A stretch of DNA of 64,000 nucleotides from Sphingorhabdus sp. M41 (GTDB lineage: Bacteria > Pseudomonadota > Alphaproteobacteria > Sphingomonadales > Sphingomonadaceae). The translations under genes and the position numbers were made by a program. The notes beneath the pieces are model-generated. The model did not search any database and had not been told where the DNA came from. It saw only the letters and a list, made by a program, of their open reading frames with translations. The stretch lies in contig NZ_CP014545.1 of NCBI RefSeq assembly GCF_001586275.1, positions 2,630,501 to 2,694,500 of the forward strand, written 5' to 3'. Shown here one piece after another: positions 9,933-35,952 of the stretch; within the stretch, counting starts at the first letter, position 1, and each line of letters starts with the position of its first letter.

Positions 9933-11492
9933 TCAGATGCCAAGCACCCCGGGTCCGATGCGCCCTTGGGGATCTAGCTCTCGTTTAATCGACCGGACAA
10001 GTTCGCCGGCAGCATTTTCTATGCGCGAACCATAGGGATATGCACGACCAAGCTGAAAATGAACCGCACCAAAACTGTCATATAGCGCGATAATATCTTC
10101 TTTGAGCTTCGCAACATAGGCAGCAGCTTCAGCATTGACCGGAAATTTGGGCAACTGTTCGAGATAATCATTCGGCACAGAAGCTTTGTGATAGGGCGTC
10201 TGCGCGTCGGGCCAGTATAGCGCTATCTCGTATAGGAATCCGCTTGTACCCACGGTGGAAAACATCCCCCCGCCCCAGATACCGAGCCGCTCCATTTCGG
10301 ATTTGCGATTCGAATAAAAAATCTCAAGCGCGTCATGGAACGGGCGAGCCTGTTCATGCGACAAGATGCCATGTAGCGGTACCCAGCGCTCCCCCTGTGG
10401 CCCGAGAACATTGTAGAAGGGAGCAAAGGGCATCGAGCGCACAACTGCCGGAACTGTTGGCGCGATCTCGGTGCCGATATCACGAACAAGTTCGCGCAAG
10501 CGATGAAGCTTGGCCTTGCACTCGCCATCATCAAAGCCTTCGACAATATAGTGCGTCATAAACGCCGAACGTGCAATTTGGCCGCGCGCCAACAGGCCTG
10601 CCGCGAGCACCTGCTTCGCGCCAGCCATCACCGAAGGCGAGCTACGAATAATGGAAAGCGCCATTTTGAGCGCGCCGCCTGCACGATCCTGCCGAGCGAT
10701 TTGTCCTTGGGACAATGCTGCATCAAGCGCAAAATGGGAATCCTCAATTCGTTCGAGCGCGATACGGCGCATGGACTCGTGCAACGCATTAAAATCGGGA
10801 AATGAGAACGAGATGACCTTGTGCGCAGGGCGCATGGCAATAATGGGTAAAGTCACCCGCGCCTTGATGCCTAACGCACCACCGTCTCCTGTGAATAGTC
10901 CGGTGAGATCCGGCCCACAATGGCGGACAAACCCCGTCTCGCCAAATGCCGAAGACCCCGTACGAAGCATCGTGCCATCGGCACGAATGATATCAAAAGC
11001 CAAAGCTGATTCAGCTGAGATACCGAAGGCGCCTGATCCATGGCTGATTGAATTCTGCGACATTGAACCGCCGATTGTCGCTTTCAGCCCGGAAAATGGG
11101 CCCCGAAACGGTGTACGCATGCCATGCTCAGCCAATGCATCCGATAAGCCAGCCCAGGTGACGCCTGCCTCTACGACCACATAACCACCAGTGGTATTGA
11201 TCTCGACAATCCGGTTAATTCGGCTGGTATCGATCAGAAAATGTGCGGCGTCGACTGTGTTATACGCATCAGTATAAGACGCACCGCCGCCACGCACGGT
11301 GAAAGAAATATTTTCCCGTGCCGCCAAGGCAATGACCTTCTGCAATTCGTCAACCGTCCCTGGGCTTATGACAGCCTGAGGCATCACCTGCGCGCGATAG
11401 ACATCCGTTGCATAGGGCGCGACACGCGTGTCACCTTGTAAAACATGAGCTTCGCCTACTATAGCCACGAAGCCTGTCACACCATTGCTCAT
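9933..11492 (-). CDS. FAD-linked oxidase, VAO/PCMH family
   Basis: 519-residue flavoprotein. The PCMH-type FAD domain covers about residues 25-215: QAVISPGTVDELQKVIALA, the phosphate-binding loop VRGGGASYTDAY, GYVVVEAGVTWAGLSDAL and IGGSMSQNSISHGSGAFG. The C-terminal half is the substrate cap of glycolate oxidase/4-cresol dehydrogenase-like enzymes. Such enzymes oxidise hydroxy acids, alcohols or alkylphenols and pass electrons to O2 or an electron carrier. The ATG overlaps the stop of the small upstream gene (ATGA), so it is the third gene of the methyltransferase operon. Substrate unknown. Confidence 0.88.
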   Translation of the reverse strand: MSNGVTGFVAIVGEAHVLQGDTRVAPYATDVYRAQVMPQAVISPGTVDELQKVIALAARENISFTVRGGGASYTDAYNTVDAAHFLIDTSRINRIVEINTTGGYVVVEAGVTWAGLSDALAEHGMRTPFRGPFSGLKATIGGSMSQNSISHGSGAFGISAESALAFDIIRADGTMLRTGSSAFGETGFVRHCGPDLTGLFTGDGGALGIKARVTLPIIAMRPAHKVISFSFPDFNALHESMRRIALERIEDSHFALDAALSQGQIARQDRAGGALKMALSIIRSSPSVMAGAKQVLAAGLLARGQIARSAFMTHYIVEGFDDGECKAKLHRLRELVRDIGTEIAPTVPAVVRSMPFAPFYNVLGPQGERWVPLHGILSHEQARPFHDALEIFYSNRKSEMERLGIWGGGMFSTVGTSGFLYEIALYWPDAQTPYHKASVPNDYLEQLPKFPVNAEAAAYVAKLKEDIIALYDSFGAVHFQLGRAYPYGSRIENAAGELVRSIKRELDPQGRIGPGVLGI

Positions 11493-11836
11493 AGCGAGCC
11501 ATCTGCAATAGAATCGATAGTCGCAAGATAATTTTCCCGCGTTTCATTTGCCCCTGATTCCGCAGCTTCTTTGCGGACCAAATAGAAAAGCCTGTCAAGC
11601 ATCGCCTGTCTGCGCGTTTCCCGTACTTCGAGCGCCTCATCGTCAAATTCCAGCTTGGCGATTTCCGTTACTGCGTCGATACCATGAGCCTTTAACACCC
11701 GCTGCGTTGAATCAATTTCGTCCGCCAGTACTGATACTTCGCCTGCCAGCACCATGATCATCGACATCATTTGATCCAGAGCAGGGTCTTCGTAGAACGA
11801 AGGGCGCTTGCCCTTGGCTTCGCGTTTCATTGTCAT
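11489..11836 (-). CDS. Small helical protein paired with methyltransferase, copy 1
   Basis: 115 residues, predicted mostly alpha-helical with a coiled-coil-like stretch around LDQMMSMIMVLAGEVSVLAD and an Arg-rich helix later. No known domain recognised. It is clearly homologous to the 106-residue protein at about 34.5 kb: both share MIxxLxxEVxVLxxxxD, a DxEA segment, an RRxxM/L motif and a terminal EAA helix. Each copy lies beside a homologous methyltransferase-like gene, which suggests a partner or chaperone subunit. Of three candidate starts the second (ATG) has AGAGG 9 bp upstream; the longest form would use TTG. Function unknown. Confidence 0.8.
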   Translation of the reverse strand: MTMKREAKGKRPSFYEDPALDQMMSMIMVLAGEVSVLADEIDSTQRVLKAHGIDAVTEIAKLEFDDEALEVRETRRQAMLDRLFYLVRKEAAESGANETRENYLATIDSIADGSL

Positions 11837-11856
11837 TTCCAATTACCTCTGCAACT

Positions 11857-13074
11857 TCAACCCGCTTTGCGAGCAATGAGTACTTCCCAACCGCCGCCCG
11901 GAGCAAATTCGCCAGCGGTAAACTCACGATCGGCGACGCCAGCTGCACTCTCGTCATTATACCCGCCTTGTGCGGTGGCAGCGAGTTCCATCATGGCCAT
12001 CGGCGCGGTATCGAAGCGGATTGTGTCGGCGGGGAAACCCGCGTCCTTTGCCAATTGCACCTGATCCATTTCGCGCATTGCGCCCCAGAACGGCTCATTG
12101 TTGTAATATGTTTCGTTATCGAGGATGAACTGCGTAAACGGGTCCATCAAGTCAAACGGCGGTAAATCCGCATGGATCATGACGCCACCGGGCTTCAATA
12201 TCCGGTGACATTCCTTAAAAATCTTCGGCATCGCCTTGCCGCTTGTTTCGTGGAGCAGGATATGGCTGACGACCAAATCGAAGCTCTCATCCTCGAAATC
12301 TACATTCTCCGCGTTCATCAGAGCAAAATTGACATCCTGTCCCATTGCTCCGGCGCGCGCATGGGCATAGCGCACCATGGGTTCACCGACATCAATGCCC
12401 CAAACCTCCGCATCGGGAAACATTTCCTTGTAAGGCAGGGTAGAATGGCCGACCGTGCAGCCCATATCCAGAATGCGCTTGGGCTGGAGATTCGGCAGGT
12501 TCCTCCTGATATAATTGCAGGCCGACCGTCCCATATCATCGTTGAACGGGCCGGTATAACCCATTGAATATAGATAGACCCCGCGATCATAAAGTACGCC
12601 GAGCGACACATCCTCGCCCGTATCCTGGTCGCCGCAATAGCCCCCTGGCATGCAATGGATATCGAGCGCACTGACGTAACGAGGCGGAACGAAGCCCTCG
12701 GGTATACGCAATTCACCCTTGTTCCGAGCCGACATTTTGGCGGTATTTTCGTTTAAGGCCGCTTGCTCCCGTTCGATGCTGTCGATGACCCCGTCCCAGA
12801 GCATTTCCTGACTGATGCGGTTTACAGCAGCATAGTTGCGGAAATATGGGTCGCCTACCATGGCCTTGCGAATGTCGTGCCGGTTCTCAGGCTCGCGCCC
12901 TTCGCTGCGAGCGAATTTCGGCGCCGCTCGTCCACGGAAGACTGGCTCCAAGCCAGGGAGCAGTCCTTGCTGCACATAATGTTTCAGACTCTTGGCAAAT
13001 TCCTGCCGGGATGCTTCCTGCGGCGTAGCGGTGGGCAACATGCCATGCCCGGTCTGCTGGAAGATGTTAAGCAT
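11857..13074 (-). CDS. Class I SAM-dependent methyltransferase-like protein, copy 1
   Basis: 405 residues. The N-terminal 165 residues form an unusual extension with a conserved DIHCMPGG motif and a DRGVYLYSMGYTG segment; the C-terminal part is a Rossmann methyltransferase, with motif I LDMGCTVGHS, the acidic WGIDVG strand end, NAENVDFEDESFDLVVS and RILKPGGVMIHADL. It matches the protein near 35 kb along its whole length. AAAGGAG lies 7 bp before the chosen ATG; the upstream TTG is too close to it. First gene of an operon with the small helical protein and the FAD oxidase, with an operator-like repeat 72 bp upstream. Methyl acceptor unknown. Confidence 0.87.
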   Translation of the reverse strand: MLNIFQQTGHGMLPTATPQEASRQEFAKSLKHYVQQGLLPGLEPVFRGRAAPKFARSEGREPENRHDIRKAMVGDPYFRNYAAVNRISQEMLWDGVIDSIEREQAALNENTAKMSARNKGELRIPEGFVPPRYVSALDIHCMPGGYCGDQDTGEDVSLGVLYDRGVYLYSMGYTGPFNDDMGRSACNYIRRNLPNLQPKRILDMGCTVGHSTLPYKEMFPDAEVWGIDVGEPMVRYAHARAGAMGQDVNFALMNAENVDFEDESFDLVVSHILLHETSGKAMPKIFKECHRILKPGGVMIHADLPPFDLMDPFTQFILDNETYYNNEPFWGAMREMDQVQLAKDAGFPADTIRFDTAPMAMMELAATAQGGYNDESAAGVADREFTAGEFAPGGGWEVLIARKAG

Positions 13075-13145
13075 GGTCAAGCTCCTTTAGAGAATAGCGC
13101 ACCACCATAGCCGTTGGATGAACCCGCGTCGAAAGATGACAAAAA

Positions 13146-13180: not shown

Positions 13181-14683
13181 CTACACAATGGCGCATACGG
13201 TCTTGGTCTCGAGATAATTATCCAGCGCCTCAATCCCGCTATCACGGCCATAGCCCGACTGCTTCATTCCACCAATAGGCAGCGATGCGTCGTACATCGA
13301 GTGGCTATTTATCCACACCGTTCCTGCCTTGATCCGTCGCGAGATGCGATGCGCACTGGACAATGAATCTGTCCAGATTCCTGCTGCAAGTCCGTAAACG
13401 CTGTCATTAGCACTGGCGATGACCTCTTCGACATCATCGAACTTCTGTATGGCAAGAACAGGTCCAAAAACCTCCTCCCGCACAATTTCCATATTGGCAT
13501 CGACATCGGCAATCACAGTTGGGCTGACGAATGTACCGACAGGACCGAGGCGTTCACCGCCGGCGATAATCGAAGCACCTTCACTTTTGGCGCTGGCGAT
13601 AAACGATCCCACCCGCTCGGCATGTTGAACCGAAACAAGTGGTCCCATCTGCGTTTCGGCGTTGAGACCGTGCCCCAAAGCCATGCCATTTGCATAAGCG
13701 GCAAGCCCTTCTGCCACGCGATCATAAATGGAGGAGTGCACATAAGCACGTGAGCCAGCAACGCACACCTGCCCGCCATTGAAGAAGATCGCATTGGCCG
13801 CCCCCGGAATCGCATGCTCAAGATCAGCGTCTGGCATCAAAATCACCGGCGACTTCCCGCCCAGTTCCAGCGACACACGCTTCAGATTCCCCTTAGAAGC
13901 ATCCAGCACCGCTCGTCCGGTTGCGGTACTGCCAGTGAAAGCGACCTTGTCGACATCCGGATGAGCCGCCAGCAATGCTCCGGCCTGCTGACCGCGGCCC
14001 GTGACTATATTGAGAACGCCATTGGGCAATCCGGCTTCTGCAATCAATTCGCCCAGGCGAATGGCACTTAATGAAGTCAGCTCAGCTGGCTTCAGTACAA
14101 CTGCACAACCAGCGGCAAGAGCGGGAGCGAGTTTCAACGTAGCGAGAATGATCGGAGAGTTCCACGGAACGATAGCGGCCACCACTCCCACTGGCTCGCG
14201 CAGCGTCCACGCCTCCACTTCCTTCCCTGCTGGCTGGTAGTTGATCGAGGTGCTTATAGTCTTACCTTCGATCGCCATCGCCTGCCCGGCGAAAAACCGG
14301 AACTGCGCAACCGCCCCCGGTATCTCGGCCCAGCGCGCAACATAAAGCGGCTTCCCCTGGTCCAATGCTTCAAGTTCCGAAAGTTCGTCGATATTAGCCT
14401 CGATCAGATCGGCAATTTTCCAGAGTATCCGCGCGCGTTCAGCGGGAACCGTTGCAGCCCACCCCTGCTGCGCAACTCTCGCAGAAGCGACCGCATCATC
14501 GACATCGGATGCGGTGGCATCGGGGATCATCGATATGATCTTGCCCGTAGCGGGGTCGGCACTTGATATGGTCGCTCCGTTCGATGCCGCAACCCAGGCG
14601 CCATCAATGAACATTCTTGCTTCACTCGGTTCGTTGAGCAAGCTGCGCACTGCTGCGGACTTTGGTTCAGGTATTAGATGCAT
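13181..14683 (-). CDS. NAD(P)-dependent aldehyde dehydrogenase, second copy
   Basis: 500-residue ALDH, clearly related to the enzyme at 4.9 kb. Motifs: GLPNGVLNIVTG, FTGSTATGRAV, catalytic Glu in LELGGKSPVILMPDA, nucleophilic Cys in GGQVCVAGSRA, and EEVFGPVLAIQKF. Two ATGs two codons apart are possible; the inner one is preferred because AGGA lies 6 bp before it, while it abuts the outer one directly. Separated from the downstream methyltransferase operon by a gap containing an operator-like repeat, so probably its own transcript. Likely oxidises an aldehyde intermediate of the island; substrate unknown. Confidence 0.93.
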   Translation of the reverse strand: MHLIPEPKSAAVRSLLNEPSEARMFIDGAWVAASNGATISSADPATGKIISMIPDATASDVDDAVASARVAQQGWAATVPAERARILWKIADLIEANIDELSELEALDQGKPLYVARWAEIPGAVAQFRFFAGQAMAIEGKTISTSINYQPAGKEVEAWTLREPVGVVAAIVPWNSPIILATLKLAPALAAGCAVVLKPAELTSLSAIRLGELIAEAGLPNGVLNIVTGRGQQAGALLAAHPDVDKVAFTGSTATGRAVLDASKGNLKRVSLELGGKSPVILMPDADLEHAIPGAANAIFFNGGQVCVAGSRAYVHSSIYDRVAEGLAAYANGMALGHGLNAETQMGPLVSVQHAERVGSFIASAKSEGASIIAGGERLGPVGTFVSPTVIADVDANMEIVREEVFGPVLAIQKFDDVEEVIASANDSVYGLAAGIWTDSLSSAHRISRRIKAGTVWINSHSMYDASLPIGGMKQSGYGRDSGIEALDNYLETKTVCAIV

Positions 14684-14876
14684 AACCATTCCTATCTTTA
14701 ATCATTCGGGCCGTCAGCTCGGCGGCACCGTGATCGGTGCTACAACTATAATTGCCACGTTGAGTGAGCATATCGGAATCTCAACTCCATTTCTCCGCAG
14801 CGCGAACAGTCTGCTCATCGAGGGGTCGTCCTGAGAGAGCATAGCCTATTCAGTTCATTAACAAATAGGAGTTGCT

Positions 14877-15164
14877 ATGTCCGCTTACATTATCGCTACG
14901 GTCACCATTAATGACCCAGAGAAGTTTGCTGCCTACGGCACAGCTATCAAGGGACTTGCCGAAGAATTCGGAGGCGAAGCCGTCGTCAAGGGACCTGTCT
15001 CTGAAGTGCTCGAAGGCGAAGCTGCAGAGAATGAACGGGTCGTAGTGACTCGCTTCCCCGATATTGCAAGCGCGCGCTCCTACATCGCGTCTAACAGATA
15101 CCAACAGGGACGTGCACTGCGCGAAGGCGCCGCATCAGCTCGAATCCTGCTGTTGGCCGAATGA
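14877..15164 (+). CDS. DUF1330 family protein
   Basis: 95-residue dimeric alpha/beta ferredoxin-like small protein. The start MSAYIIATVTINDPEKFAAY is the DUF1330 hallmark, and ERVVVTRFPDIASARSYIAS is the second conserved block. AGGAG is 5 bp before ATG. It directly precedes an FAD hydroxylase, which begins at or just after its stop codon. Members of this family often sit beside catabolic genes and are poorly characterised; a role as a small isomerase or lactone-handling protein is only a possibility. Confidence 0.87.
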   Translation: MSAYIIATVTINDPEKFAAYGTAIKGLAEEFGGEAVVKGPVSEVLEGEAAENERVVVTRFPDIASARSYIASNRYQQGRALREGAASARILLLAE

Positions 15165-15187
15165 CGCTGGGTAAAAAGGGCACAAAA

Positions 15188-16387
15188 ATGCAGTTTGACG
15201 AAGTTCGATCTCAAGTCCTGATAGCTGGTGGTGGCCCGGTAGGAATGACCTTGGCCTATTCACTTGCACTCAAAGGCATTTCTGTTCGGGTGATTGAAGC
15301 TGCACCAGGGTGCATGGAAGACATGCGCGCCTCTACCTTCCATCCTCCAACGCTCGAGATGATGGAAAGTCTTGGCCTCCTCTCGGAACTCGAGGATATG
15401 GGCTTGCGCGCACCTGTTTACCAATATGGTAACGTAGTCGACGACCGATATTATCATCTCGACATGGCAGAGATTGGTGATGTTACACCATTCCCATATC
15501 GAATGCAGTGCGAGCAATATAAGCTGACTCGCCTGATCGCCACAAAGCTTGAAGCGATCCCTCACGCCGAAGTTCTGTTTTCCCGGAGCATCTTAAACTT
15601 CGATCAAGGCGCAAACGGCGTTCAAGCTGCCGTCGAAGGACCACTCGATATCCGGCTTTTCCAAGCCGACTATCTTGTCGGCGCGGATGGAGGCAATTCA
15701 ACCGTGCGAAAATGGCTGAATGTCGGTTTCGATGGGTTCACTTATCCGGAAAGCTTTCTGACGCTTTCCACCGCATACCCAATCGAAAAACATCTGCCTT
15801 GGCTAAAACAAGTAAATTATGTGAGCGATGCTCCAAGCTGGTGGGTGGTTTTGCGTGTACCAGGCTTGTGGCGCGTTCTGGTTCCACAAAATATTGAAGC
15901 GTCCGACAACGACGTCATGAGCGATGCGCGCAAAGACAAAGTCTTTTCCGAACTGCTGGGAACAAAAGACATAATCGATACAAAACATCGCACTTGCTAT
16001 CGGGTCCACCAACGCGTGGCAAAAACGTTCCGAAGCGGCCGCGTAATGCTGGCCGGTGATGCAGCTCATCTCAACAACCCGTTGGGCGGATTTGGCATGA
16101 ATTCCGGAATCCATGATGCCATGAACCTTTCCGAGAAGCTGGAAAAGATCTTCCACAACAACGGCGATGCAGATGCGTTGCTCGATAAATATGATCGTCA
16201 GCGCCGCACCGTCACTCACGAGTTCATTCAAAAACAAACGCTTGCGAACAAAGAGGCATTTGATGGATCATTGAACGGACGCGAGGCATTGATGGAAAAT
16301 CTTATGAACCACCCCGAAAAGCGTCATCGATATATGATGGAGCAAGCTATGTTCTTCAGTCTCGAACGTGCGGCGGAAATCGAATAG
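15188..16387 (+). CDS. FAD-dependent hydroxylase, PHBH/MhpA-like
   Basis: 399-residue class A flavoprotein monooxygenase of the FAD_binding_3 type: QVLIAGGGPVGMTLAYSLAL (FAD motif), LVGADGGNSTVRKWLNV (DG motif) and VMLAGDAAHLNNPLGGFGMN (GD motif). It is distinct from the NicC-like enzyme at 6.4 kb and closer to 3-(3-hydroxyphenyl)propionate hydroxylases. Two starts compete: an ATG overlapping the DUF1330 stop without a ribosome site, and the one chosen, nine codons later, with AAAAAGGG 7 bp upstream. Probable role: hydroxylation of an aromatic ring early in the pathway. Confidence 0.88.
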   Translation: MQFDEVRSQVLIAGGGPVGMTLAYSLALKGISVRVIEAAPGCMEDMRASTFHPPTLEMMESLGLLSELEDMGLRAPVYQYGNVVDDRYYHLDMAEIGDVTPFPYRMQCEQYKLTRLIATKLEAIPHAEVLFSRSILNFDQGANGVQAAVEGPLDIRLFQADYLVGADGGNSTVRKWLNVGFDGFTYPESFLTLSTAYPIEKHLPWLKQVNYVSDAPSWWVVLRVPGLWRVLVPQNIEASDNDVMSDARKDKVFSELLGTKDIIDTKHRTCYRVHQRVAKTFRSGRVMLAGDAAHLNNPLGGFGMNSGIHDAMNLSEKLEKIFHNNGDADALLDKYDRQRRTVTHEFIQKQTLANKEAFDGSLNGREALMENLMNHPEKRHRYMMEQAMFFSLERAAEIE

Positions 16388-17358: not shown

Positions 17359-17546
17359 ACTGCAAGTCTCGGCACGGACCGAGTCAACTCCAATGGAGAA
17401 AGCATTCGATTCCAAGATAGCAAATTATCACTACTTGTCAGAGCGTTACACTCACCCCTGATTAAAACAAACAAGCGAATATCCACGATACGGTGAAACA
17501 GCATTCCAAATTGGCTCTTCGCAATTCGATCCGCCAATGGAGCAGG

Positions 17547-18956
17547 ATGCTTACAAAATCAGTTTCCGACTCGAGCCCAAAAACCTTGTATCAACGCCTT
17601 TGGAATGCCCATGTTGTAGCGGGCGATCCAAATGGCCGCGCCTTGCTCTATATTGATCGTCATCTGTTGCACGAAGTCAGCACTCCAGAAAGCTTCGAAT
17701 TACTGCGCGACAACAACCTTGCAGTTCATCGCCCTTCTACACAACTTGCTGTGCCTGACCACTCTGTCCCCACACGCAACCGCACTTCCCTGTTGCCTCC
17801 AGGCCTCGCCCGCGATCAGGTCAATCTGCTTGAAGCCAATTGCGCGCAGTTCGGGATAGAATATCTGCCCCTGAATGACTCCCGGCAAGGCATCGTTCAC
17901 GTCATATCTCCTGAGCAGGGCTTCACGCTACCCGGTATAACGCTTGTTTGCGGCGACAGTCACACAGCAACCCATGGGGCTTTCGGTGCACTGGCATTCG
18001 GGATCGGAGCTAGCGAATGCGGTACAGTCATGGCAACGCAATGCCTTTGGCAAACCCGCGCCAAAACCATGCGCGTCCGGTTTGATGGCGCAACGCAGAC
18101 AAATGTCGGGACCAAAGACCTGATTCTGGCGTTGATCGCTCAAATCGGCGCGTCCGGTGCAACGGGGCACGCCATAGAATTCGTCGGCGATGCCGTTCGC
18201 AACGCGTCGATGGAAGCGCGCATGAGTTTGTGCAACATGGCTACCGAGGCAGGTTCACGTACCGGACTGGTCGCTCCCGACGACACGACATTTTCCTATC
18301 TGAAGAGCCGACCTCGCGCACCTACTGGAAAAATGTGGGATGCTGCGATTGGCAACTGGCGCAAGCTTGCAAGCGACGATGAAGCGATATTTGATTACGA
18401 AACCACCTTGGATGTCTCGGCGATTGCTCCGCAGATCAGTTGGGGCACCTCACCCGATCAGGTCATCGGCATTGATGGACGGATCCCCGCGGATACCAAT
18501 GATCCGCGAGCCGCGAAGTCATTGGCCTATATGGGTCTCGAGGCTGGCCAGCCGATCAAAGGCATTCCAATTGATTTTGCCTTTATCGGCAGCTGTACCA
18601 ACGGAAGAATAGAGGATCTTCGCGCGGCTTCTGGGGCGATACGTGGCCAGCGTGTAGCTGACAATGTTACGGCGATAGTCGTTCCAGGCTCTAGCAGTGT
18701 AAAAACGCAAGCCGAAGCTGAGGGCCTGGATCGCATCTTTCTCGCGGCCGGTTTTCAATGGCACGATGCCGGCTGTTCACTATGCGTCGCAATGAATGGT
18801 GATGTCGTTCCGCCAGGCCGCCGTTCAATCTCTTCCAGCAACCGCAATTTCGAGGGACGACAAGGGCCAAATGTACGCACGCATTTGGCGAGCCCCGTGA
18901 CGGTCGTTGCTTCCGCCATTGCCGGATACATTGCCGATGCAAGGAAGCAGGCATGA
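17547..18956 (+). CDS. Aconitase-family hydro-lyase large subunit (LeuC-like), copy 1
   Basis: 469 residues, the size of LeuC. It carries the three [4Fe-4S] cysteines: one in FIGSCTNGRIEDL and two in GCSLCVAMN. Also seen: VPDHSVPTR, HVISPEQGFTLPG and VCGDSHTATHGAFGALAFGIG. The catalytic large subunit dehydrates or hydrates 2- or 3-hydroxy diacids. Leucine-biosynthesis neighbours are absent; the next genes are the small subunit and a C-C lyase, as in dimethylmalate or citraconate metabolism, so a catabolic (substituted maleate)/(malate) hydratase is favoured. The chosen ATG has GGAG upstream; the longer frame would need GTG. Confidence 0.9.
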   Translation: MLTKSVSDSSPKTLYQRLWNAHVVAGDPNGRALLYIDRHLLHEVSTPESFELLRDNNLAVHRPSTQLAVPDHSVPTRNRTSLLPPGLARDQVNLLEANCAQFGIEYLPLNDSRQGIVHVISPEQGFTLPGITLVCGDSHTATHGAFGALAFGIGASECGTVMATQCLWQTRAKTMRVRFDGATQTNVGTKDLILALIAQIGASGATGHAIEFVGDAVRNASMEARMSLCNMATEAGSRTGLVAPDDTTFSYLKSRPRAPTGKMWDAAIGNWRKLASDDEAIFDYETTLDVSAIAPQISWGTSPDQVIGIDGRIPADTNDPRAAKSLAYMGLEAGQPIKGIPIDFAFIGSCTNGRIEDLRAASGAIRGQRVADNVTAIVVPGSSSVKTQAEAEGLDRIFLAAGFQWHDAGCSLCVAMNGDVVPPGRRSISSSNRNFEGRQGPNVRTHLASPVTVVASAIAGYIADARKQA

Positions 18957-19567
18957 AGAATTTCGACAAATTGATCGCTCAAGCAACCTCCCTGCCCGAC
19001 GATAATATCGACACCGACATCATCTATCCAGCACGCTTCCTACTGATAACTTCGAAAAAGGGTCTGGGCAGCCATGCCTTTACCGACCGGATTGCCGCTG
19101 GCGATGACCGTATCGGCGAAGGCCGGGTCTCTCCCATCCTGTGCACAGGACAAAATTTCGGCTGCGGGTCTAGCCGCGAACATGCGGTTTGGGCGCTGGC
19201 AGATATTGGCGTCCAGGCAATTTTCGCTCCATCATATGGCGAAATCTTCCGGGGAAACTGCGTGAACAACGGCATCCTTGCAGGCCAAGTGACACCGGCT
19301 GACATGCCCAATCTACATGCAGGCGCGAAAAGTGGAGCAATGCTGCGCATTGATCTGATTCACTGCACTATCTCCGGACCTTTCGGCTCAATCGATTTTT
19401 GCATCCCTGATGCTGATCGCGAGACGCTGCTCAACGGATGGAACGAGACGACGCGCATCCTGGCCCTGCACAAACAGGACATATCAACTTTCGAACAGCA
19501 ACAGCGAATTTCTGCACCTTGGCTGTGGACGCACGAATATCAACAGGAGTTACCCCAGAATGACTGA
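18953..19567 (+). CDS. Aconitase-family hydro-lyase small subunit (LeuD-like), copy 1
   Basis: 204 residues, swivelling domain partner of the preceding LeuC-like subunit. Motifs: DNIDTDIIYPARFLL with the conserved DTD, and FGCGSSREHAVWAL, the substrate-carboxylate loop. Its ATG overlaps the large-subunit stop (ATGA), and its own stop overlaps the next start by 8 bp, so the three genes are translationally coupled. The substrate loop after ARFL differs from the second copy in this window (ITSKKGLG versus SVTKRGLA), consistent with different diacid substrates. Confidence 0.9.
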   Translation: MKNFDKLIAQATSLPDDNIDTDIIYPARFLLITSKKGLGSHAFTDRIAAGDDRIGEGRVSPILCTGQNFGCGSSREHAVWALADIGVQAIFAPSYGEIFRGNCVNNGILAGQVTPADMPNLHAGAKSGAMLRIDLIHCTISGPFGSIDFCIPDADRETLLNGWNETTRILALHKQDISTFEQQQRISAPWLWTHEYQQELPQND

Positions 19568-21294: not shown

Positions 21295-23163
21295 TTATTC
21301 TACATTGGCCCATTTGGGCTGCTTGGGAGCTGGCAAGCCAGTTTCTGCCAAGCAATTTGCCCGCAGCGTTTCTATATCGGGACCGAAGTTGAAGGGACTG
21401 CCAGTCTCCTCGCGCTCAGAACGCATCTTGCTGCGCAGCGCATCGGTTTCGGCCGCATCAACTGTACCATCGACCGCGACAACAACGCCATAGTTCAACG
21501 CTCCATCCGCGGTGACCAATCCTTGCGCTATCTCTTTTACAATCAGCGCCGGGTCACGTTCAAGCGGGTCGCCCCACCCTCCCCCACCCCAGGTTATGAA
21601 GTGCAACTGATCATCGGCCTCAACCGGGTAATCCTCAACCTTGTTGCCCAGCACGATCTCTGTTCCGTCAGCCTTTACCAGAACCTTGCGAGCACGCGTC
21701 CCCGGAAGGCCGCCGTTCACGCCCCAGGGCGGAACAAACCAGCGGTCATCATGGATCGCGATCACGCCCGGCTCCAGGAAACGGTAGACCATGTTGATGC
21801 CATTGCCACCACGGTGAAGACCGGCGCCACCACTGTCCGCCACGGTTTCATAGCGTTCGATGCGCAGAGGGAAGTAACGTTCGAGAAATTCGTTCGGTAC
21901 GTTGGTAAAGCCAGGCCAAAGCGAATGCCCGTCGGGCCCGTCACCCAACGGACGCCCCGGGATACCACCAAATCCAATCTGGAACAGCTGAAACCACTTT
22001 CCCTTGCTGTCCGTGCCTGCATAGAACAAATGTGGGCTGGACGAAAAACCTGCACCGTTGAGGAATTCCGGTGTCTTCTGGCCGAGCAGGCCGCCAAGAA
22101 TGTCGAACAAGCGGCCAAGCGCATGTGTCCGACCCGAGAGGGCTGCAGGGAATTTCGGTTTGAGTAGAGAGCCTTCCGGAATTCTCACCTCGATCAGGTC
22201 GTAAAATCCGTCGTTAAACAGAATTTGCGGATCAAAGACCATGATCATGTAGATGCCAAAGAACATTTTCATCATATTCTCGTTCAGCAAGAAATTGATG
22301 GATGCCTGGCTCTGCGGATCAGTCCCTTCAAAATCGAGAATGACACGGTCATTCTCGCGCCACATCGTGCAACGGATCTTATAGGGACCGTAGCCTAGCC
22401 CATCATCGCAGATATAATCTTCAAAGCTGACTTTTTCTTCAGAAACCGATGTCGAAATCAGCGTCTGCATGGCGCGGCGATTGCGCTCAAGCAACATGTC
22501 CGTCGCAGAAGCATAGACATCGTCACCAAAGCGTTCGCACATTTCGATGACCCGGCGCGAGGATACTCTGCAGGCGGCGATGAGCGCGTTCAAATCGGCG
22601 GAACACCATTCGGGCGTGCGGACCTGATGCATGACCAGCTTGTATAGATCTTCGTTGAATTGACCTTGTTTCCAAAGCTTGACCGGCGGTATCCGGACCC
22701 CTTCCTGAAAAATGCTGGTCGCGTCGATCGGCATCGATCCTGGAACCTTGCCTCCGATATCGGACATATGACCGAACATCGAGGTAAAGGCGACAAGCCG
22801 TCCGTCCTTGAACACCGGCATCAGCACCAGCCAGTCGTTGCTGTGACTGATCGCGCCGTTCACCGAATAGGGGTCAGACAGGAAAATCAGATCGCCGTCT
22901 TCGACCGTGCCTTCAAAACCGTCCAGAAAAGGGCCGATGTAGCTTCCAAACTGGCCAACGATCATGCGTCCCTTGCTGTCTGCAATCAATGGGAAGGCAT
23001 CTCCCTGTTCGCGGATGCCAGGTGACATGGCAGTCCGTACGAGGGTTGCGTCCATCTCCACGCGGGCATTGCGTAGCGCATTTTCAATAACCTCAAGCGT
23101 GACCGGATCGATGTCGACCTTGTTAAACGGCTTATCGTTAACCTGGATGATTTGTGCGGGCAT
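21295..23163 (-). CDS. hyuB: Hydantoinase B/oxoprolinase family protein
   Basis: 622 residues, B subunit of the ATP-dependent hydantoinase/5-oxoprolinase/acetone carboxylase family. Conserved pieces: IDPVTLEVIENALRNARVEM at the start, then DPYSVNGAISHSNDWLVLMP, GRTHALGRLFDILGG and the C-terminal WGGGGWGDPLERDP. The ATG has AAGGA 8 bp upstream; the longer frame overlaps hyuA. With HyuA it would use ATP to open a cyclic amide such as an N-methylhydantoin or pyroglutamate analogue, though carboxylase activity is known for some relatives. Cytoplasmic. Confidence 0.92.
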   Translation of the reverse strand: MPAQIIQVNDKPFNKVDIDPVTLEVIENALRNARVEMDATLVRTAMSPGIREQGDAFPLIADSKGRMIVGQFGSYIGPFLDGFEGTVEDGDLIFLSDPYSVNGAISHSNDWLVLMPVFKDGRLVAFTSMFGHMSDIGGKVPGSMPIDATSIFQEGVRIPPVKLWKQGQFNEDLYKLVMHQVRTPEWCSADLNALIAACRVSSRRVIEMCERFGDDVYASATDMLLERNRRAMQTLISTSVSEEKVSFEDYICDDGLGYGPYKIRCTMWRENDRVILDFEGTDPQSQASINFLLNENMMKMFFGIYMIMVFDPQILFNDGFYDLIEVRIPEGSLLKPKFPAALSGRTHALGRLFDILGGLLGQKTPEFLNGAGFSSSPHLFYAGTDSKGKWFQLFQIGFGGIPGRPLGDGPDGHSLWPGFTNVPNEFLERYFPLRIERYETVADSGGAGLHRGGNGINMVYRFLEPGVIAIHDDRWFVPPWGVNGGLPGTRARKVLVKADGTEIVLGNKVEDYPVEADDQLHFITWGGGGWGDPLERDPALIVKEIAQGLVTADGALNYGVVVAVDGTVDAAETDALRSKMRSEREETGSPFNFGPDIETLRANCLAETGLPAPKQPKWANVE

Positions 23164-23179: not shown

Positions 23180-25228
23180 TCAGGCGAGATTGATGAGGAT
23201 GTTGCCCACCGCGTCGACGGTGCCGGTACAATCGGCCTCAATCAAAGTGGTGGAGTCCATTTCGACGACAATGGCGGGACCGGGGATAATATCTCCGGCA
23301 CGAAGCTTCTCGCGGTCGTAGATAACGGCAGGGTGCATCTGCCCGTTGTCCCATAGTTCATGGTCGCGAATCTTCGCTTCCGACGGGTCGCCGTTACCCT
23401 GAGGCAGGTTGAACCGGCCGAGATCGAGGGCTTTGCCCAATGCCACGGCTCGCAAATTCACCAGTTCGTGCGGACTGGCCATGTTGAAGGTGAACAGCCT
23501 TTCGTGTTCCTCGTCGAATCGAGCCTGCACAGCAGCAAGCCCATCCTTGCGCAGCGTATCCGGATCGATGGAGAGCGGCACTTCAAAAGCCTGCCCTTCG
23601 TAGCGCACGTCGATTTCGAACGAGATCGTGATGTCACCCGGTGCAAGTCCTTCAGCCTCGAGTTCCGCGCTCGTCTCAACGGCCATCTCTTCAAGCGCAG
23701 CGATAACGATGGTCTCGTCCGTTTCACTGAACGGCTTGGAGAAACTGCGGGCCGTTTCCGTTCTCATTTGGGTTGTCGCATCGCCCAGAGCGCAGAGCAC
23801 TCCGGGGGATACTGGCGATACAGCTGGCCAGCTTCCCATCAATCGCGCAACCGCGTTTACGTGTAGCGGTCCGGCTCCGCCAAATCCCATCAGGGCAAAA
23901 TCGCGGGGATCGTAACCCTGCTGAACCGAGATCATGCGCAGAGCCCCGAACATATTCTCGTTCACAATGTCGATGATACCGCGCGCGGCCTCCATCAACC
24001 CAATGCCAAGCTTGTCCGCAATTTCCTGAACCGCCTGCTTTGCGCCGTCACGGTCCAGTTTAAATGCACCGCCGAGCAAGCTCTCCGGCAGATAACCAAG
24101 CACAACATTTGCGTCCGTCACCGTCGCTTCAACACCACCCTTGCCATAGGCAACCGGCCCTGGCACCGCTCCTGCTGATTGCGGGCCAACCCGCAAGGCG
24201 CCGGTAAGCTCCGGAACATACGCAATGGAGCCGCCGCCAGCCCCCACGGTTTTGACATCCAATGCCGAAGCGCGAACCGACAAGTGGCCGACTTCGGTGG
24301 TGCGCACGCGCCGCGCTGTAAGATTCTCGATCAGGGCAACATCCGTGGATGTTCCACCGACGTCCAGCGTCAATATATTTTTCAGACCCGCGTTCTTTGC
24401 CACCCACAGCGCGCCGGTGACGCCACCGGCAGGACCGCTCATCAGCAAGGACACCGGGTGAATCTCCGATTTTTCGGAAGACATCAGGCCACCGTCAGAA
24501 CGAAGCAAAGACAGCGAACCCGCCATGCCGCCAGCTCTCAGTTGGCTACGAAGGTTGCGCACATAATTGCCAACAATCGGGCGCACCGCAGCATTGGCTA
24601 CAGTCGTCAATGTGCGCTCATACTCCTGCATTTCCGGCAGAACTTCGTGGCTGAGTGAAATTGATATGTCCGGCATGATCTCGGCGGCCAGTTCACCCAC
24701 ACGTTTTTCATGCGCGCTATTGAGATAGCCATTCATCAGACTGACCGTCAGCGCCTCAACCCCGGCATCACGCAATTTTTCCAGAGCCGCGCGTATCTGC
24801 GCCTCATCAATGGCGCGCACCTCATTGCCTTGCGCATCCATGCGTCCATCAATCTCGATTGTGTCTTCAAGCGCTGCAAGTGGCTCGGGCTTTGGCCATA
24901 CGATCCATCCGGCCAGGCCGCCCGGTACAAAGCTGCGCGCTATTTGCATGACGTCGCGATATCCTTCGGTAACGATCAGTCCTACGCGGCTGCCCTTACC
25001 TTCCAACACAGCATTGGTTGCAACCGTTGTACCGTGCAGAAAATATTCGATATCAGCGGGGACAATGCCAGCCTTCTCGCAAATAGCGGTTAGCCCGTTC
25101 AATATGCCTTCTGAACTGTCATGAGGCGTCGAGGGCGTTTTATGGCGCCAGAACGATCCACTCTCTTGGTCAAACAACAGAAGATCCGTGAAAGTACCGC
25201 CGACATCCACACCAAGCCGATAAGCCAT
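23180..25228 (-). CDS. hyuA: Hydantoinase A/oxoprolinase family protein
   Basis: 682 residues, the ATP-binding A subunit. N-terminal RLGVDVGGTFTDLLLFD is the actin-like phosphate-1 motif; FLHGTTVATNAVLEGKG follows; LTLDVGGTSTDVALI is the second phosphate motif; GFGGAGPLHVNAVARLMG lies in the C-terminal hydantoinase_A block. First gene of the minus-strand operon ending in the carbamoylsarcosine-amidase-like gene. GGAA precedes the ATG by 8 bp. Two TATCC-N7-GGA repeats lie in the 0.33 kb upstream, so it probably belongs to the same regulon as leuC1 and the methyltransferase operon. Confidence 0.93.
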   Translation of the reverse strand: MAYRLGVDVGGTFTDLLLFDQESGSFWRHKTPSTPHDSSEGILNGLTAICEKAGIVPADIEYFLHGTTVATNAVLEGKGSRVGLIVTEGYRDVMQIARSFVPGGLAGWIVWPKPEPLAALEDTIEIDGRMDAQGNEVRAIDEAQIRAALEKLRDAGVEALTVSLMNGYLNSAHEKRVGELAAEIMPDISISLSHEVLPEMQEYERTLTTVANAAVRPIVGNYVRNLRSQLRAGGMAGSLSLLRSDGGLMSSEKSEIHPVSLLMSGPAGGVTGALWVAKNAGLKNILTLDVGGTSTDVALIENLTARRVRTTEVGHLSVRASALDVKTVGAGGGSIAYVPELTGALRVGPQSAGAVPGPVAYGKGGVEATVTDANVVLGYLPESLLGGAFKLDRDGAKQAVQEIADKLGIGLMEAARGIIDIVNENMFGALRMISVQQGYDPRDFALMGFGGAGPLHVNAVARLMGSWPAVSPVSPGVLCALGDATTQMRTETARSFSKPFSETDETIVIAALEEMAVETSAELEAEGLAPGDITISFEIDVRYEGQAFEVPLSIDPDTLRKDGLAAVQARFDEEHERLFTFNMASPHELVNLRAVALGKALDLGRFNLPQGNGDPSEAKIRDHELWDNGQMHPAVIYDREKLRAGDIIPGPAIVVEMDSTTLIEADCTGTVDAVGNILINLA

Positions 25229-27602: not shown

Positions 27603-28190
27603 CTATAAATAGATCCAGGGCCGCTTGATCCGGTCTTGGCTGCGCCACGATGTGATGAGCGGTTGCGATAGCAATGTCCGGTCGATCTCGTCCTGACCGC
27701 TTATCAGGATCGCAGCGGATTCTTCGTCGATATCGAAAGACCAGCAAGAGCCATCGGTTCCGCATATCGCCCGTTCCGGGAGATTCACCGTCAAATTCAT
27801 CTGCCTTGACGCTATCGGCATTGTATCAGCCGTTGCCGGCAGGATGAAATTGCGAATGCAATTGCGCTTGAATATCGGGTTGAACGATGGTGCGACGATC
27901 ACCCGAAATCCATATTCTGCCAGAGCCCATACCGCCTGTTCCCGGCTAGAACCGCATCCGAAATTGGCTCCCCCGAGAAGGATGCTTGCCTCGGCAAATT
28001 CTGGACGATTGAGCACGAATTCCGGATCCGGTGTCCGGTCCTCGAGATAACGCCATCCGGCAAAAAGACCGCCTGCAAGCCCTCGCTTGGTCACCGAACG
28101 GATTTCGCGTGAAGGGATGATGATGTCCGTGTCGATATTATCCTGCAATAGTGGCACGGCCAGGCTGTCGACTGAGGTAAAAGCATTCAT
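27603..28190 (-). CDS. Aconitase-family hydro-lyase small subunit (LeuD-like), copy 2
   Basis: 195 residues. Motifs DNIDTDIIIPSREIRS and FGCGSSREQAVWALAEYGF identify the LeuD swivelling domain; IVAPSFNPIFKRNCIRN follows. The ATG overlaps the large-subunit stop (ATGA). The substrate loop after the DTD motif (SREIRSVTKRGLA) is different from copy 1, hinting at another diacid. Cytoplasmic partner of the LeuC-like subunit encoded immediately upstream. Confidence 0.9.
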   Translation of the reverse strand: MNAFTSVDSLAVPLLQDNIDTDIIIPSREIRSVTKRGLAGGLFAGWRYLEDRTPDPEFVLNRPEFAEASILLGGANFGCGSSREQAVWALAEYGFRVIVAPSFNPIFKRNCIRNFILPATADTMPIASRQMNLTVNLPERAICGTDGSCWSFDIDEESAAILISGQDEIDRTLLSQPLITSWRSQDRIKRPWIYL

Positions 28191-29629
28191 GCCTCGTCCT
28201 CCTGCTTTGCAGTGGCGTCCATGACAGCAAGCTCTCTGGCACTGGTGATCCGGCCGAGAATGGCCGAAGCCGCGACATTGGCCGGCGCTGCGATATGCGT
28301 GCGCGTCCCCTGCCCCTGACGATTCTCAAAATTGCGGTTGGTGGATGACATGACCCGATCCTGTGGACCAAAGCTCTCGCCGCCCACAAAGAAGCACATT
28401 GAGCATCCGGGCTCACGCCATTCGAACCCGGCTTCCAGAAAGATACGGTCGAGCCCTGCCTCTTCGGCGCGGCGCTTGACACTGCCGGAGCCGGGAACAC
28501 AAATCGCCCGGACCCCTGACGCGACTTTGCGCCCCTGCAATATCTCCGCGGCGCTTTTCAGATCTTCAAAACGCGCATTTGTGCAGGAACCAATAAAAGC
28601 GCCGTCAATCGAAAGGCCGGCAACCGGCTGCGTCGCATCCACTGCCATATAGGCAAGCGAGCGCTCTGCACCCGTAACATTGTCAACGGCGATATTTGGC
28701 GCGGTGCCAATCGCCGCCGATTGCTCGGGATTGGTGCCCCAACTGACCATTGGCATGATTTCGCTTGCATCAAATCTATGCTCGATATCGAATTGCGCAC
28801 CCTCGTCGCTGAAAAGCTGTCGCCAATCCGATATTGCAGCCAGCCACGCCTCACCAGTCGGCGCGTAGGGACGTCCTTGAAGATAATCGAAAACCTTGTC
28901 ATCCGGAGCGATAATCGCGGAAAAGGCACCCATTTCCGCGGCCATATTGCACAATGTCATTCGCCCTTCGATCGACATTTCGCTCACTGTGGTACCTGCA
29001 AATTCGACTATATGACCTTTGGCCCCTGAAGACCCGATGTGCGAGATGATATGCAGGGCAATATCCTTGCCCGTGACATCAAGCGCGCTATCTCCGTCAA
29101 TCATGATCCGCATGGTTTTCGGCTTTGCCAGACGCAGCGTCATTGTCGCCAATGCATGCTCTGCTTCGGTCGACCCGACACCCCAGGCGAGCCCGCCAAA
29201 AGCTCCCTGCGTGCAGGTATGACTATCGGGGCATACGAGAGTCACCCCTGGCAGGACAACCCCCTGTTCGGGCGAAATGACATGGACTATGCCCTGCCGC
29301 TCATCTCCAATATCGAACAGGGTCAAGCCAGCAGCCTTTGCGGCCTCTCGCGTTACACGGATAAATTCTGCGCCCGTGGGCATGGTTGTTTCATCCCCGC
29401 GACCGGGAAAAGTATCAACGACATGGTCCATAGTCACAAAGACATTTTCTGGTGCGACCACCTTGCGGCCATCTTCTGCCAAACTCTTCAGAGCAACGCC
29501 GCCCGTCCGCTCATGCAGCCATACCCGATCGATCGCGACCAGCGAAAACCCCTCGCCGACCTCAACTTCGTGAAGCTCCCATATCTTCTGGAAGATAGAT
29601 TGCGCCTTACCGGAAACTGAACTTTTCAT
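28187..29629 (-). CDS. Aconitase-family hydro-lyase large subunit (LeuC-like), copy 2
   Basis: 480 residues. [4Fe-4S] cysteines in FIGSCTNARFEDL and GCSMCFFVGG; HVISPEQGVVLPG and VCPDSHTCTQGAFGGLAWGVG also conserved. Start is one of two ATGs two codons apart; neither has a Shine-Dalgarno, but TATAAT lies only 10-16 bp upstream, pointing to leaderless mRNA. With leuD2 and the neighbouring CaiB and HMG-CoA-lyase-type enzymes it probably hydrates or dehydrates a methyl-branched C5 or larger diacid (citraconate/citramalate-like) for CoA-dependent cleavage. Leucine biosynthesis is unlikely from context. Confidence 0.9.
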   Translation of the reverse strand: MKSSVSGKAQSIFQKIWELHEVEVGEGFSLVAIDRVWLHERTGGVALKSLAEDGRKVVAPENVFVTMDHVVDTFPGRGDETTMPTGAEFIRVTREAAKAAGLTLFDIGDERQGIVHVISPEQGVVLPGVTLVCPDSHTCTQGAFGGLAWGVGSTEAEHALATMTLRLAKPKTMRIMIDGDSALDVTGKDIALHIISHIGSSGAKGHIVEFAGTTVSEMSIEGRMTLCNMAAEMGAFSAIIAPDDKVFDYLQGRPYAPTGEAWLAAISDWRQLFSDEGAQFDIEHRFDASEIMPMVSWGTNPEQSAAIGTAPNIAVDNVTGAERSLAYMAVDATQPVAGLSIDGAFIGSCTNARFEDLKSAAEILQGRKVASGVRAICVPGSGSVKRRAEEAGLDRIFLEAGFEWREPGCSMCFFVGGESFGPQDRVMSSTNRNFENRQGQGTRTHIAAPANVAASAILGRITSARELAVMDATAKQEDEA

Positions 29630-29632
29630 AGT

Positions 29633-29654
29633 CATTTGATATATTATTATACCA
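29633..29654. promoter_or_regulatory. AT-rich operator-like repeat and -10 element at the leuC2 start
   Basis: On the plus strand this reads CATTTG, then A, a TATATTA core, TT, and ATACCA. It matches the element at 30948-30969 at 19 of 22 positions. On the minus strand it contains TATAAT about 10 bp before the outer leuC2 ATG, so a bound regulator would cover the promoter and the start codon. I found no good -35. Confidence 0.5.
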
Positions 29655-29815
29655 TAATGGCCAAACAGAATTGGATCTTCATAAACTGTGTCTTTCAAAG
29701 CCGGATATGATCATAAACGCTTGATATTATTATATAAACTAACCTCGGGCCAATTGGTCTGCACAATCCGCAATTCAGACTAATCGCTCAGTGGTTATTT
29801 CGAATGCATGCGAGT

Positions 29816-34449: not shown

Positions 34450-34465
34450 AGGAACGCTGAAAATA

Positions 34466-34786
34466 ATGACCCGAACTCCTTTACCACGCAAGCCCAACCG
34501 GCTCGATGCAATCGAGGGAGCGCGCGATCTGGACGAGCAGTTTCTGGCCATGATCGTAAGCCTGACATCCGAAGTAACAGTGTTGCGCGCCCGGCTCGAT
34601 GCTGCAGAGCGGCTGCTGGTCAAACGTGGTTCGCTGAACAAGGGGGAAGTGGACTCATTTGACCCGGACAGCGAAGCGCAAATCGAACGCGACGCGTTGC
34701 GCCGACGCACCATGCAAAAAATATTCCGACCGCTGCAAGAGGCCGCGCAAAAAGATCTGGAAGAAACCGAAAGGCGTGCACGATGA
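34466..34786 (+). CDS. Small helical protein paired with methyltransferase, copy 2
   Basis: 106 residues, alpha-helical with a heptad-like stretch at LDEQFLAMIVSLTSEVTVL and a charged C-terminus. Homologous to the 115-residue protein at 11.5 kb: shared MIxxLxxEVxVL, an (R)xL(L/K)xxG turn, a D-D/P-x-EA segment, RRxxM and EAA. Its stop overlaps the start of the adjacent methyltransferase-like gene (ATGA). In copy 1 the gene order is reversed, so linkage has survived rearrangement, which supports a functional pair. No known domain. Confidence 0.8.
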   Translation: MTRTPLPRKPNRLDAIEGARDLDEQFLAMIVSLTSEVTVLRARLDAAERLLVKRGSLNKGEVDSFDPDSEAQIERDALRRRTMQKIFRPLQEAAQKDLEETERRAR

Positions 34787-35952
34787 ACGCTACCACCAGC
34801 TTGCCGAACATCGACGAAGGCCGCGCAAAGCTCGACCACCCGTTGATTGCCATACCCAGTCATGACGAATTGATCGAACAACTCTTCGTGCGCGACCTCA
34901 AACTCTTTGTAATGTCCGAGCTTGAACCGGTGCAGGCCAAAATTGCCAAGGCAGAAGAAGCCGCCTTGCCAGATTCCGCAAGCAACAACCGCGCATCACA
35001 GTTGCGCGATAGCATGAGCGGACACGAATCCTTCCGCTCCTGGCTGGCTTTGAAGCGTGAAAGCCAGCGCCAGCTCTGGGAAACAATTTCGGAGAGCGTC
35101 GCAAGACAGGCTGAAGAACTGGAAGCGCTTGCCGCGATAAAGGAGCCAAAGGGATCCGTTCGAACCGATCCCGGCTTTGCCGCGCCAGATTATATTCTGG
35201 ATGGTGATATCCACCTGATGCCCGGTGGCAATGCACATGATGACAATTCTATATTGCAGGGTGCCGTCATGGATCGCGGCGGTGCCGTATATATGCTGGG
35301 TCGGAACGGGGGGATGCTCAACGATCTGCGCGGCCAGACAGCCATGGCTCATGCTCTGACCCGATATCCCGATTTTGCGCCAGCGCGCATTCTGGACATG
35401 GGGTGCGGGATTGGTACGAGCAGCGTGCCGGCATTCAACTGCTTCCCGGATGCGGAGGTGCACGCCGTTGATGTGGGCGCTTCCATGCTGCGCTATGGCC
35501 ATGCCCGCGCGGAACATCTGGGTGCAACAATACATTTTTCTCAACAGAGCGCGGAAAAAACGGATTTCGAAGATGGTAGCTTCGATCTGGTGTTCAGTTG
35601 CATATTGTTCCACGAAACATCCCAGGATGCGACGTTGAACATTCTCGCTGAATCAAAGAGGTTGCTGCGCCCTGGCGGTCTAGCCATCCACCTTGAAGTT
35701 CCGCTCCTTCACGACAATACCGACCTCTGGACGGAATTGAGCGGCGAACTGGAAGCCCAGTATAACAACGAACCAAATTGGCGTGGTGCACTGACTGCAG
35801 ATTATGCGTCCCTGCTCGGAGCGGCGGGCTTGACCGACATCCAGACCGGCTATCAGCCAACAAGCTTGAACGCCCGCGAGGGACCTTTCCGGTTCGAGCC
35901 AAAGAGCGAAGGTGTCTTCAGATCCTGGTTCGTAGCGTCCGGGATAGCCTGA
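34783..35952 (+). CDS. Class I SAM-dependent methyltransferase-like protein, copy 2
   Basis: 389 residues, full-length homologue of the protein at 11.9-13.1 kb. The N-terminal extension (about 165 residues) carries the shared DIHLMPGG motif and MDRGGAVYMLGRNGG; the methyltransferase domain has ILDMGCGIGTSSVP (motif I, closer to consensus than copy 1), VHAVDVGASMLRYGHARAEH, then FEDGSFDLVFSCILFHETS and RLLRPGGLAIHLEV. Last gene of the six-gene operon. Substrate unknown; the conserved HET following the beta-4 strand (ILLHETS/ILFHETS) is shared by both copies and may be catalytic. Confidence 0.87.
   Translation: MNATTSLPNIDEGRAKLDHPLIAIPSHDELIEQLFVRDLKLFVMSELEPVQAKIAKAEEAALPDSASNNRASQLRDSMSGHESFRSWLALKRESQRQLWETISESVARQAEELEALAAIKEPKGSVRTDPGFAAPDYILDGDIHLMPGGNAHDDNSILQGAVMDRGGAVYMLGRNGGMLNDLRGQTAMAHALTRYPDFAPARILDMGCGIGTSSVPAFNCFPDAEVHAVDVGASMLRYGHARAEHLGATIHFSQQSAEKTDFEDGSFDLVFSCILFHETSQDATLNILAESKRLLRPGGLAIHLEVPLLHDNTDLWTELSGELEAQYNNEPNWRGALTADYASLLGAAGLTDIQTGYQPTSLNAREGPFRFEPKSEGVFRSWFVASGIA

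Follow-up and report, generated by a model that had tools for sequence, protein, structure and literature searches.

The two gene pairs

The window considered here is the whole stretch of 64,000 nucleotides from Sphingorhabdus sp. M41 (contig NZ_CP014545.1, positions 2,630,501 to 2,694,500), in which two loci each combine a gene for a protein related to S-adenosylmethionine (SAM)-dependent methyltransferases (MT1, P0002, and MT2, P0004) with a gene for a small helical partner (P0001 and P0003; coordinates are collected in Table 1). In the first pair MT1, which counts 407 amino acids from a TTG start or 405 from an ATG two codons inward, comes first and the small gene lies behind it; in the second pair the small gene precedes MT2 and overlaps it by 4 nucleotides. 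A distance of 21 kb separates the two pairs, which lie on opposite strands and have their genes in reversed order. Aligned over 341 residues, the N-terminal part among them, MT1 and MT2 are 38% identical (expectation value, E, 2e-67). For the small proteins, which are 22% identical, a direct BLASTP comparison gave no match (best E 9.9); phmmer with P0001 as query retrieved P0003 at E 1.3e-5 among 14,412 open reading frames (ORFs), and the two are therefore homologous. A profile of the small-protein family, of which both are themselves rows, scored P0001 at 4.6e-43 and P0003 at 2.5e-26, the latter match extending past a stop codon. The arrangement described in the initial annotation, with both partners homologous between loci, was thus borne out.

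No other full-length relative of the methyltransferases was found in the window's own genome (3.34 Mb): behind these two copies came four matches (E 1.1e-5 to 0.003) that covered the general methyltransferase domain only. A third small protein was not found by profile scoring among the best 15 of 21 candidates.

Families, fold and conserved residues

The Pfam matches of MT1 and MT2 are above the cut-off and confined to the methyltransferase part (residues 182-349), and the best stretches of the 31 PDB profile matches fall within residues 163-371, with 5wp5, 5wp4 and 3bus as the best ones over residues ~196-321. The helical N-terminal part had no sequence match in the Pfam rows or in the 31 PDB profile rows, and the best 25 NCBIfam rows for each protein all scored under their curated cut-offs. 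The SAM motif I (DxGxxxG) is present, G207 and G211 being found in 157/157 aligned methyltransferases and the first position being D in 147 and E in 10 of them; the acid after strand β2, D230, occurs in 156/157. In this motif and in a predicted Rossmann fold the proteins agree with the class I SAM-dependent methyltransferases. Seven residues are invariant in all 157 sequences: H142, G207, G211, D268, H277, E278 and E329. H142 is part of the DIHxMPG loop, the H277-E278 pair follows β4 and E329 belongs to an NNEP stretch, so that the DIHxMPGG and HE(T) motifs pointed out from the sequence at the outset are real features of the family. H277 aligns with the first histidine of the LHHM stretch of RebM. 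The same invariance leaves the idea of a dead second enzyme in islands with two methyltransferases unsupported.

The initial annotation knew of no described family for the small protein. Nothing credible was found for it in Pfam, NCBIfam or the PDB, and its family profile had no PDB match; the best library matches were PspB, in 1 of 52 members (E 0.0036), and another at 0.065.

Pairing across genomes

The distribution of the two genes was followed in three genome samples, which overlap in part (two of the six gammaproteobacterial hits are also hits in the phylum sample). In the order sample of 296 genomes, own included, a methyltransferase at a threshold of E 1e-25 was present in 42 genomes and the small protein in the same 42; at most the best six methyltransferase candidates per genome were scored, so that some may have been missed. 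A further seven genomes of the order matched the small-protein profile weakly and over short stretches (E 1.6e-5 to 8.4e-5), most likely by chance. In the phylum sample (398 genomes, own included) the same 4 genomes have both genes, and in the gammaproteobacterial class sample (274 genomes) the same 6, with 13 methyltransferase and 13 small-protein matches. Homologues of the small protein living mostly without the methyltransferase, named in the initial annotation as the finding that would speak against a two-component enzyme, were therefore looked for and did not appear.

The two genes also lie near each other. In the order sample, a small-protein match lies within 1 kb of 98/104 methyltransferase places (on the same strand, downstream of 86 and upstream of 8; on the opposite strand, downstream of 4), and the like holds for 11/13 in the gammaproteobacterial sample, read from two match tables, and for 139/161 in 123 related loci, some of which are the same island twice and from which methyltransferase matches under ~250 profile positions had been dropped before counting. 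When located downstream on the same strand in the related loci, the small ORF overlaps the methyltransferase stop or begins within 30 nucleotides of it in 108 of 117 cases, a spacing measured on longest ORFs, which favours overlap. Conversely, 19 of 117 small-protein matches in the order sample lie more than 1 kb from any listed methyltransferase; weak matches (E 1.6e-5 to 9.8e-5) make up 9 of the 19, and the remaining 10 were traced where island sequence was examined. No natural fusion of the two proteins occurs among the ORFs of the related loci. Related pairs are found in Sphingomonadales, other Alphaproteobacteria and several Gammaproteobacteria, and relatives of the methyltransferase in 8 of 72,556 plasmid records (E 1e-20); on plasmid pJE1 the two genes are annotated only as a class I SAM-dependent methyltransferase and a hypothetical protein. 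The pairing is real and near-obligate.

Predicted joint structure

A structure prediction of the complex, as suggested in the initial annotation, was run with AlphaFold2 on a natural in-frame pair from a related locus (L056), read through the intervening stop so that the chains are covalently joined, with an alignment of 16 joined, 35 methyltransferase-only and 39 small-only rows. The joint model reached a mean predicted local distance difference test (pLDDT) score of 91.5 and a predicted template modelling score (pTM) of 0.91, the translated spacer having a pLDDT of 49. The small part reached ~95.5 (mean of eleven blocks), compared with a pLDDT of 83 and a pTM of 0.58 for the small protein predicted alone from its own alignment. 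The gain concerns the first ten residues, a non-helical block containing GKRP (91 joint versus 64 alone), and the last three blocks (97, 96 and 96 versus 81, 70 and 77). Read from pLDDT and pTM, the prediction thus supports docking of the small protein on the methyltransferase, and together with the pairing counts it lends support to the earlier proposal of an undescribed two-component enzyme.

A Foldseek search with the joint model listed 50 rows between E 4.5e-9 and 1.3e-7, mostly SAM enzymes, with template modelling scores by target of 0.32-0.65. Most of the alignments listed have 225-293 columns; longer ones (338-445 columns) have a root-mean-square deviation of 12-17, a range that includes the rows of 402-445 columns, so that no listed row covers the whole chain well.

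Two lineages kept in one island

Methyltransferases of this family tend to lie close together. In 27 multi-copy genomes of the order, 50 of 89 are within 40 kb of another one, against a mean of 6.1 and a maximum of 18 in 2000 trials of random placement on a 3.4-Mb sequence. In a midpoint-rooted FastTree tree of 157 methyltransferases, MT1 is one of 120 members of a large clade (support 0.74), and the clade of MT2 has 13 members (support 0.99). Ten of these 13, window included, share a locus with a methyltransferase of the large clade; for another, L171, the distance to such a methyltransferase is 27 kb. The small proteins follow: in 25 two-pair loci each is closer to a relative elsewhere than to its island mate, the distances of methyltransferases and partners are correlated (r 0.93 over 135 pairs), and in 128/131 cases the nearest small protein is that of a same-clade methyltransferase, the large clade accounting for 103 of the 131. 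The correlation would also be raised by common descent alone, and the match within two-pair islands is the stronger point. We read the pairs as two older paralogous methyltransferase lineages which, to judge from these sequence comparisons, recur together in islands and did not arise by local copying. Of the duplicated pair retained through rearrangement that had been proposed for the window, the pairing therefore stands and the duplication and rearrangement in place do not. A recent local duplication was rejected, since MT1 and MT2 belong to different clades and their small proteins are closer to outside relatives.

Island genes and context

The island between 6353 and 34449 of the window is densely packed (Table 1). 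It has two LeuC/LeuD-like sets, three PuuE-like genes, two isochorismatase-family genes, one Amdase gene, HyuA/HyuB-like genes and a PrpB/dimethylmalate-lyase-like gene, and its content resembles a route leading from a cyclic imide or lactam to alkylmalates. Elsewhere in the genome there are two further aconitase-C matches, in frames of 908 and 212 amino acids (AcnA- and LeuD-like by length), and the two LeuCD-like sets of the window therefore probably do not serve leucine synthesis.

Table 1. Genes of the two pairs and of the surrounding island (positions in the window)
Feature	Position	Strand	Remarks
Small helical partner 1 (P0001), 115 aa	11489..11836	-	phmmer, family profile
Methyltransferase subunit 1 (MT1, P0002)	11857..13080	-	clade 0 (tree); Pfam Methyltransf_25, 1.1e-22, residues 203-299
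Small helical partner 2 (P0003), 106 aa	34466..34786	+	phmmer, family profile
Methyltransferase subunit 2 (MT2, P0004), 389 aa	34783..35952	+	clade 1 (tree); Pfam Methyltransf_25, 5.7e-21
Flavin monooxygenase	6353-7519	-	island gene
PuuE-like amidohydrolase	7516-8430	-	below NCBIfam cut-off
Amdase-family protein	8479..9333	-	no PDB match at E 1e-5
FAD_binding_4 oxidase	9933..11492	-	ORF shares 4 nt with the end of small partner 1; homologue present in 68/116 loci
Aldehyde dehydrogenase	13181..14689	-	upstream of MT1, same strand
Flavin adenine dinucleotide (FAD) monooxygenase	15161..16387	+	family match, recurrence
LeuC-like	17493-18956	+	clusters with 28187-29698; recurrence
LeuD-like	18953-19567	+	by inspection; recurrence
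PrpB/dimethylmalate-lyase-like	ends 20414	+	resembles methylisocitrate and 2,3-dimethylmalate lyases
HyuB-like, lactam-hydrolase-type	21295-23241	-	sequence match; recurrence
HyuA-like, lactam-hydrolase-type	23180-25228	-	by inspection; recurrence
Second LeuD/LeuC-like set	27603..29698	-	sequence match

The recurrence of these genes was counted over a set of 116 related loci, each 13 kb or longer and not independent of one another. Besides the FAD_binding_4 oxidase, homologues were found of the PuuE-like gene in 41, aldehyde dehydrogenase in 37, LeuC-like in 32, isochorismatase in 32, flavin monooxygenases in 29 and 24, PrpB-like in 23, Amdase in 20, HyuA in 18 and HyuB in 13 loci, and at least three of nine core catabolic genes occur together in 45/116. 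Four control genes of the window (three flagellar and one GGDEF, named by inspection) recur in 0/116. On plasmid pJE1 the pair sits in a similar island. The islands are probably catabolic and their contents fit the breakdown of a nitrogen-containing compound; a role in tetrapyrrole metabolism is a guess from gene content.

Some further genes may be recorded. At 4156-5058 lies a gene with no Pfam match whose homologues occur in 26/116 loci and to which, by inspection, a pJE1 gene annotated DUF3108 may correspond. Also by inspection, positions 37078-49276 extend the island with genes for a TonB receptor and for N-acyl-D-amino-acid-deacylase-like, M24-like and luciferase-like monooxygenase proteins; the two luciferase-like genes have homologues in 2/116 loci each. 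On pJE1 a gene annotated REDY-like protein HapK (L165, 19517-19837) adjoins the methyltransferase. DUF1838, a name taken from one member, appears in 26/81 neighbourhoods; it gave no match in the own genome, yet 14 controls were equally unmatched, so that absence is not indicated.

Proposed function and alternatives

We favour, with a probability of about 0.62, the reading that each locus encodes an undescribed two-subunit SAM-dependent methyltransferase and that the pairs represent older lineages kept in one probably catabolic island, because the SAM motif, the invariant residues, the shared genomes, the close spacing, the correlated distances, the joint model and the island context point the same way. 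Family relation, SAM motif, near-obligate pairing, co-inheritance and island context are computed observations. The mechanism that we infer adds a physical complex, methyl transfer, a catabolic role and a metal. In it, the large subunit would combine a family-specific helical N-terminal domain with a class I (Rossmann) methyltransferase domain, and the small subunit would use an extended GKRPxF arm together with a long helix to dock on it, as modelled. The active site with bound SAM would probably include H142, H277-E278 and E329, and perhaps a metal; the two pairs would most likely add methyl groups to intermediates that arise as a natural compound, probably one containing nitrogen, is broken down.

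Several findings weigh against this interpretation. A partner within 1 kb is lacking for 6/104 methyltransferases of the order sample, 2/13 of the gammaproteobacterial sample and 22/161 of the related loci, and eight methyltransferases in five loci (L113, L119, L121-L123) have no partner at E 10 in the locus DNA examined; the partner may therefore be dispensable in some lineages. The islands also differ in content: not one of the nine core catabolic genes is present in 35/116 loci, and several genes of the window's island have homologues in just 0-3/116 loci (nitroreductase-like 0, one alpha/beta hydrolase 0, one deacylase-like 2, DUF1330 3), and therefore no single pathway explains all of them. 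Finally, the fold model is a covalent read-through chain for which only 16 of 90 alignment rows are joined.

The 22 unpartnered methyltransferases of the related loci are of several kinds. For eight (L085, L087, L089, L093, L174, L178, L188, L189) an otherwise unpaired small gene lies 1.4-15 kb off in the same locus, and for five (L094, L097, L098, L100, L106) the locus offers no small gene but that of the island mate. The very divergent methyltransferase of L203 is directly followed by a 94-residue gene with a weak match (E 0.011), and that of L113, an Acidobacteriaceae contig, stands at the contig edge. L121-L123, from proteobacterial metagenome-assembled genomes, carry tandem methyltransferases with no detectable partner in the locus DNA examined. 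In L093, L094, L097, L098, L100 and L106 two methyltransferases on opposite strands are separated by ~3.9 kb and just one of them has a small gene next to it, L093 having one further unpaired small gene; these islands contain a beta-lactamase-family gene, and several also have MmgE/PrpD-looking (by inspection) and DUF1838 genes.

The unpartnered genes, and the eight loci in which a methyltransferase and an otherwise unpaired small gene are 1.4-15 kb apart, would suit a small protein acting as a transient chaperone, activator or regulator of the methyltransferase and not as a stable subunit. We consider this unlikely, as the joint model is confident and the small protein appears to gain in it relative to the prediction alone, 108/117 ORFs overlap or are closely spaced, and the gammaproteobacterial matches number 13 for each gene. 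If a generic methyltransferase that has its neighbour by chance had simply been duplicated locally, this would account for the presence of only two full-length copies in the genome, but MT1 and MT2 belong to different clades that co-occur elsewhere and the pairing is kept in three genome samples, which makes such an origin extremely improbable.

Other explanations concern the reaction and the pathway. The large subunit could bind SAM without transferring a methyl group and use the methyltransferase scaffold for a lyase, cyclase or hydratase reaction, like SpnF; this cyclase is among the Foldseek and profile matches, the invariant His-Glu pair and the DIH motif are unusual, and methylation would be an odd step for a breakdown pathway. 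The glycines of the SAM motif are nevertheless invariant in 157/157 sequences and most of the listed sequence and fold neighbours are named methyltransferases, so we regard this possibility as improbable. It also seems quite unlikely that the pairs belong to a biosynthetic cluster: the fold neighbours RebM, AtmM, MitM and CysG act in antibiotic biosynthesis, and the HapK annotation on pJE1 would agree with it, but the TonB receptor, CoA-transferase, lyase and hydrolase genes argue for catabolism and no synthase-type gene was noticed by eye among the listed ORFs, where no family search was made. A bolder version of the two-subunit reading would see here a new class of metal-assisted methyltransferases, whose two units act in turn (or as a hetero-assembly) on the same molecule and mark it with a cryptic methyl group while a natural product of the cyclic imide or lactam type, possibly a tetrapyrrole fragment, is broken down. 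This version is very doubtful; if true, the island homologues of imide, half-amide, dialkylmaleate and dialkylmalate enzymes would complete the breakdown.

No description of the pair was found in the literature searched, where it has no name to search by, and it has no model of its own in Pfam or NCBIfam as scanned here. SAM methyltransferases requiring a dedicated small partner are few, to our knowledge. Because the pair serves as a marker of a group of probably catabolic islands, working out its function would help to identify what these islands act on.

Comparison with known systems

The Rossmann domain with its SAM motif is common to the proteins described here and to class I enzymes of the RebM or phosphoethanolamine-methyltransferase type, from which ours differ by a helical N-terminal part with no PDB sequence match; no enzyme of that type is known to carry such a small partner. 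The best NCBIfam score of both methyltransferases is to CpaM (NF043040), a corrinoid-protein-associated methyltransferase, at 64.4 and 60.5 bits, well under the cut-off of 180 bits; no corrinoid protein was noticed by eye in the window, where no family search was made. A small protein accompanying a SAM methyltransferase also recalls the Trm112-type activators, which the methyltransferase needs and which bind zinc through a cysteine-based site. In contrast to Trm112, P0001 and P0003 contain zero cysteines, a relative of theirs is predicted to be helical, and the family has no credible Pfam match.

A further parallel in fold and profile is that with BelI/CysG (9fce, E 4.9e-10), which are metal-dependent carboxyl O-methyltransferases of alkylmalates with His122-His123-Asp191 as metal ligands (PMC11408123). 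The LeuCD-like genes of our islands may be set beside those alkylmalate substrates. To judge from the aligned ranges, and if the chain numbering of the structure follows that of the paper, H277 would lie within ~2 residues of the BelI/CysG histidine pair; provided that the two places correspond, the family has His-Glu there (H277-E278, 157/157) instead of His-His. A metal in the active site is a lead and not a result. An extra N-terminal domain and the small partner further distinguish the proteins described here from BelI/CysG. Taken as a whole, the most likely reading of the system is a SAM-dependent methyltransferase of two subunits that belongs to catabolic islands.

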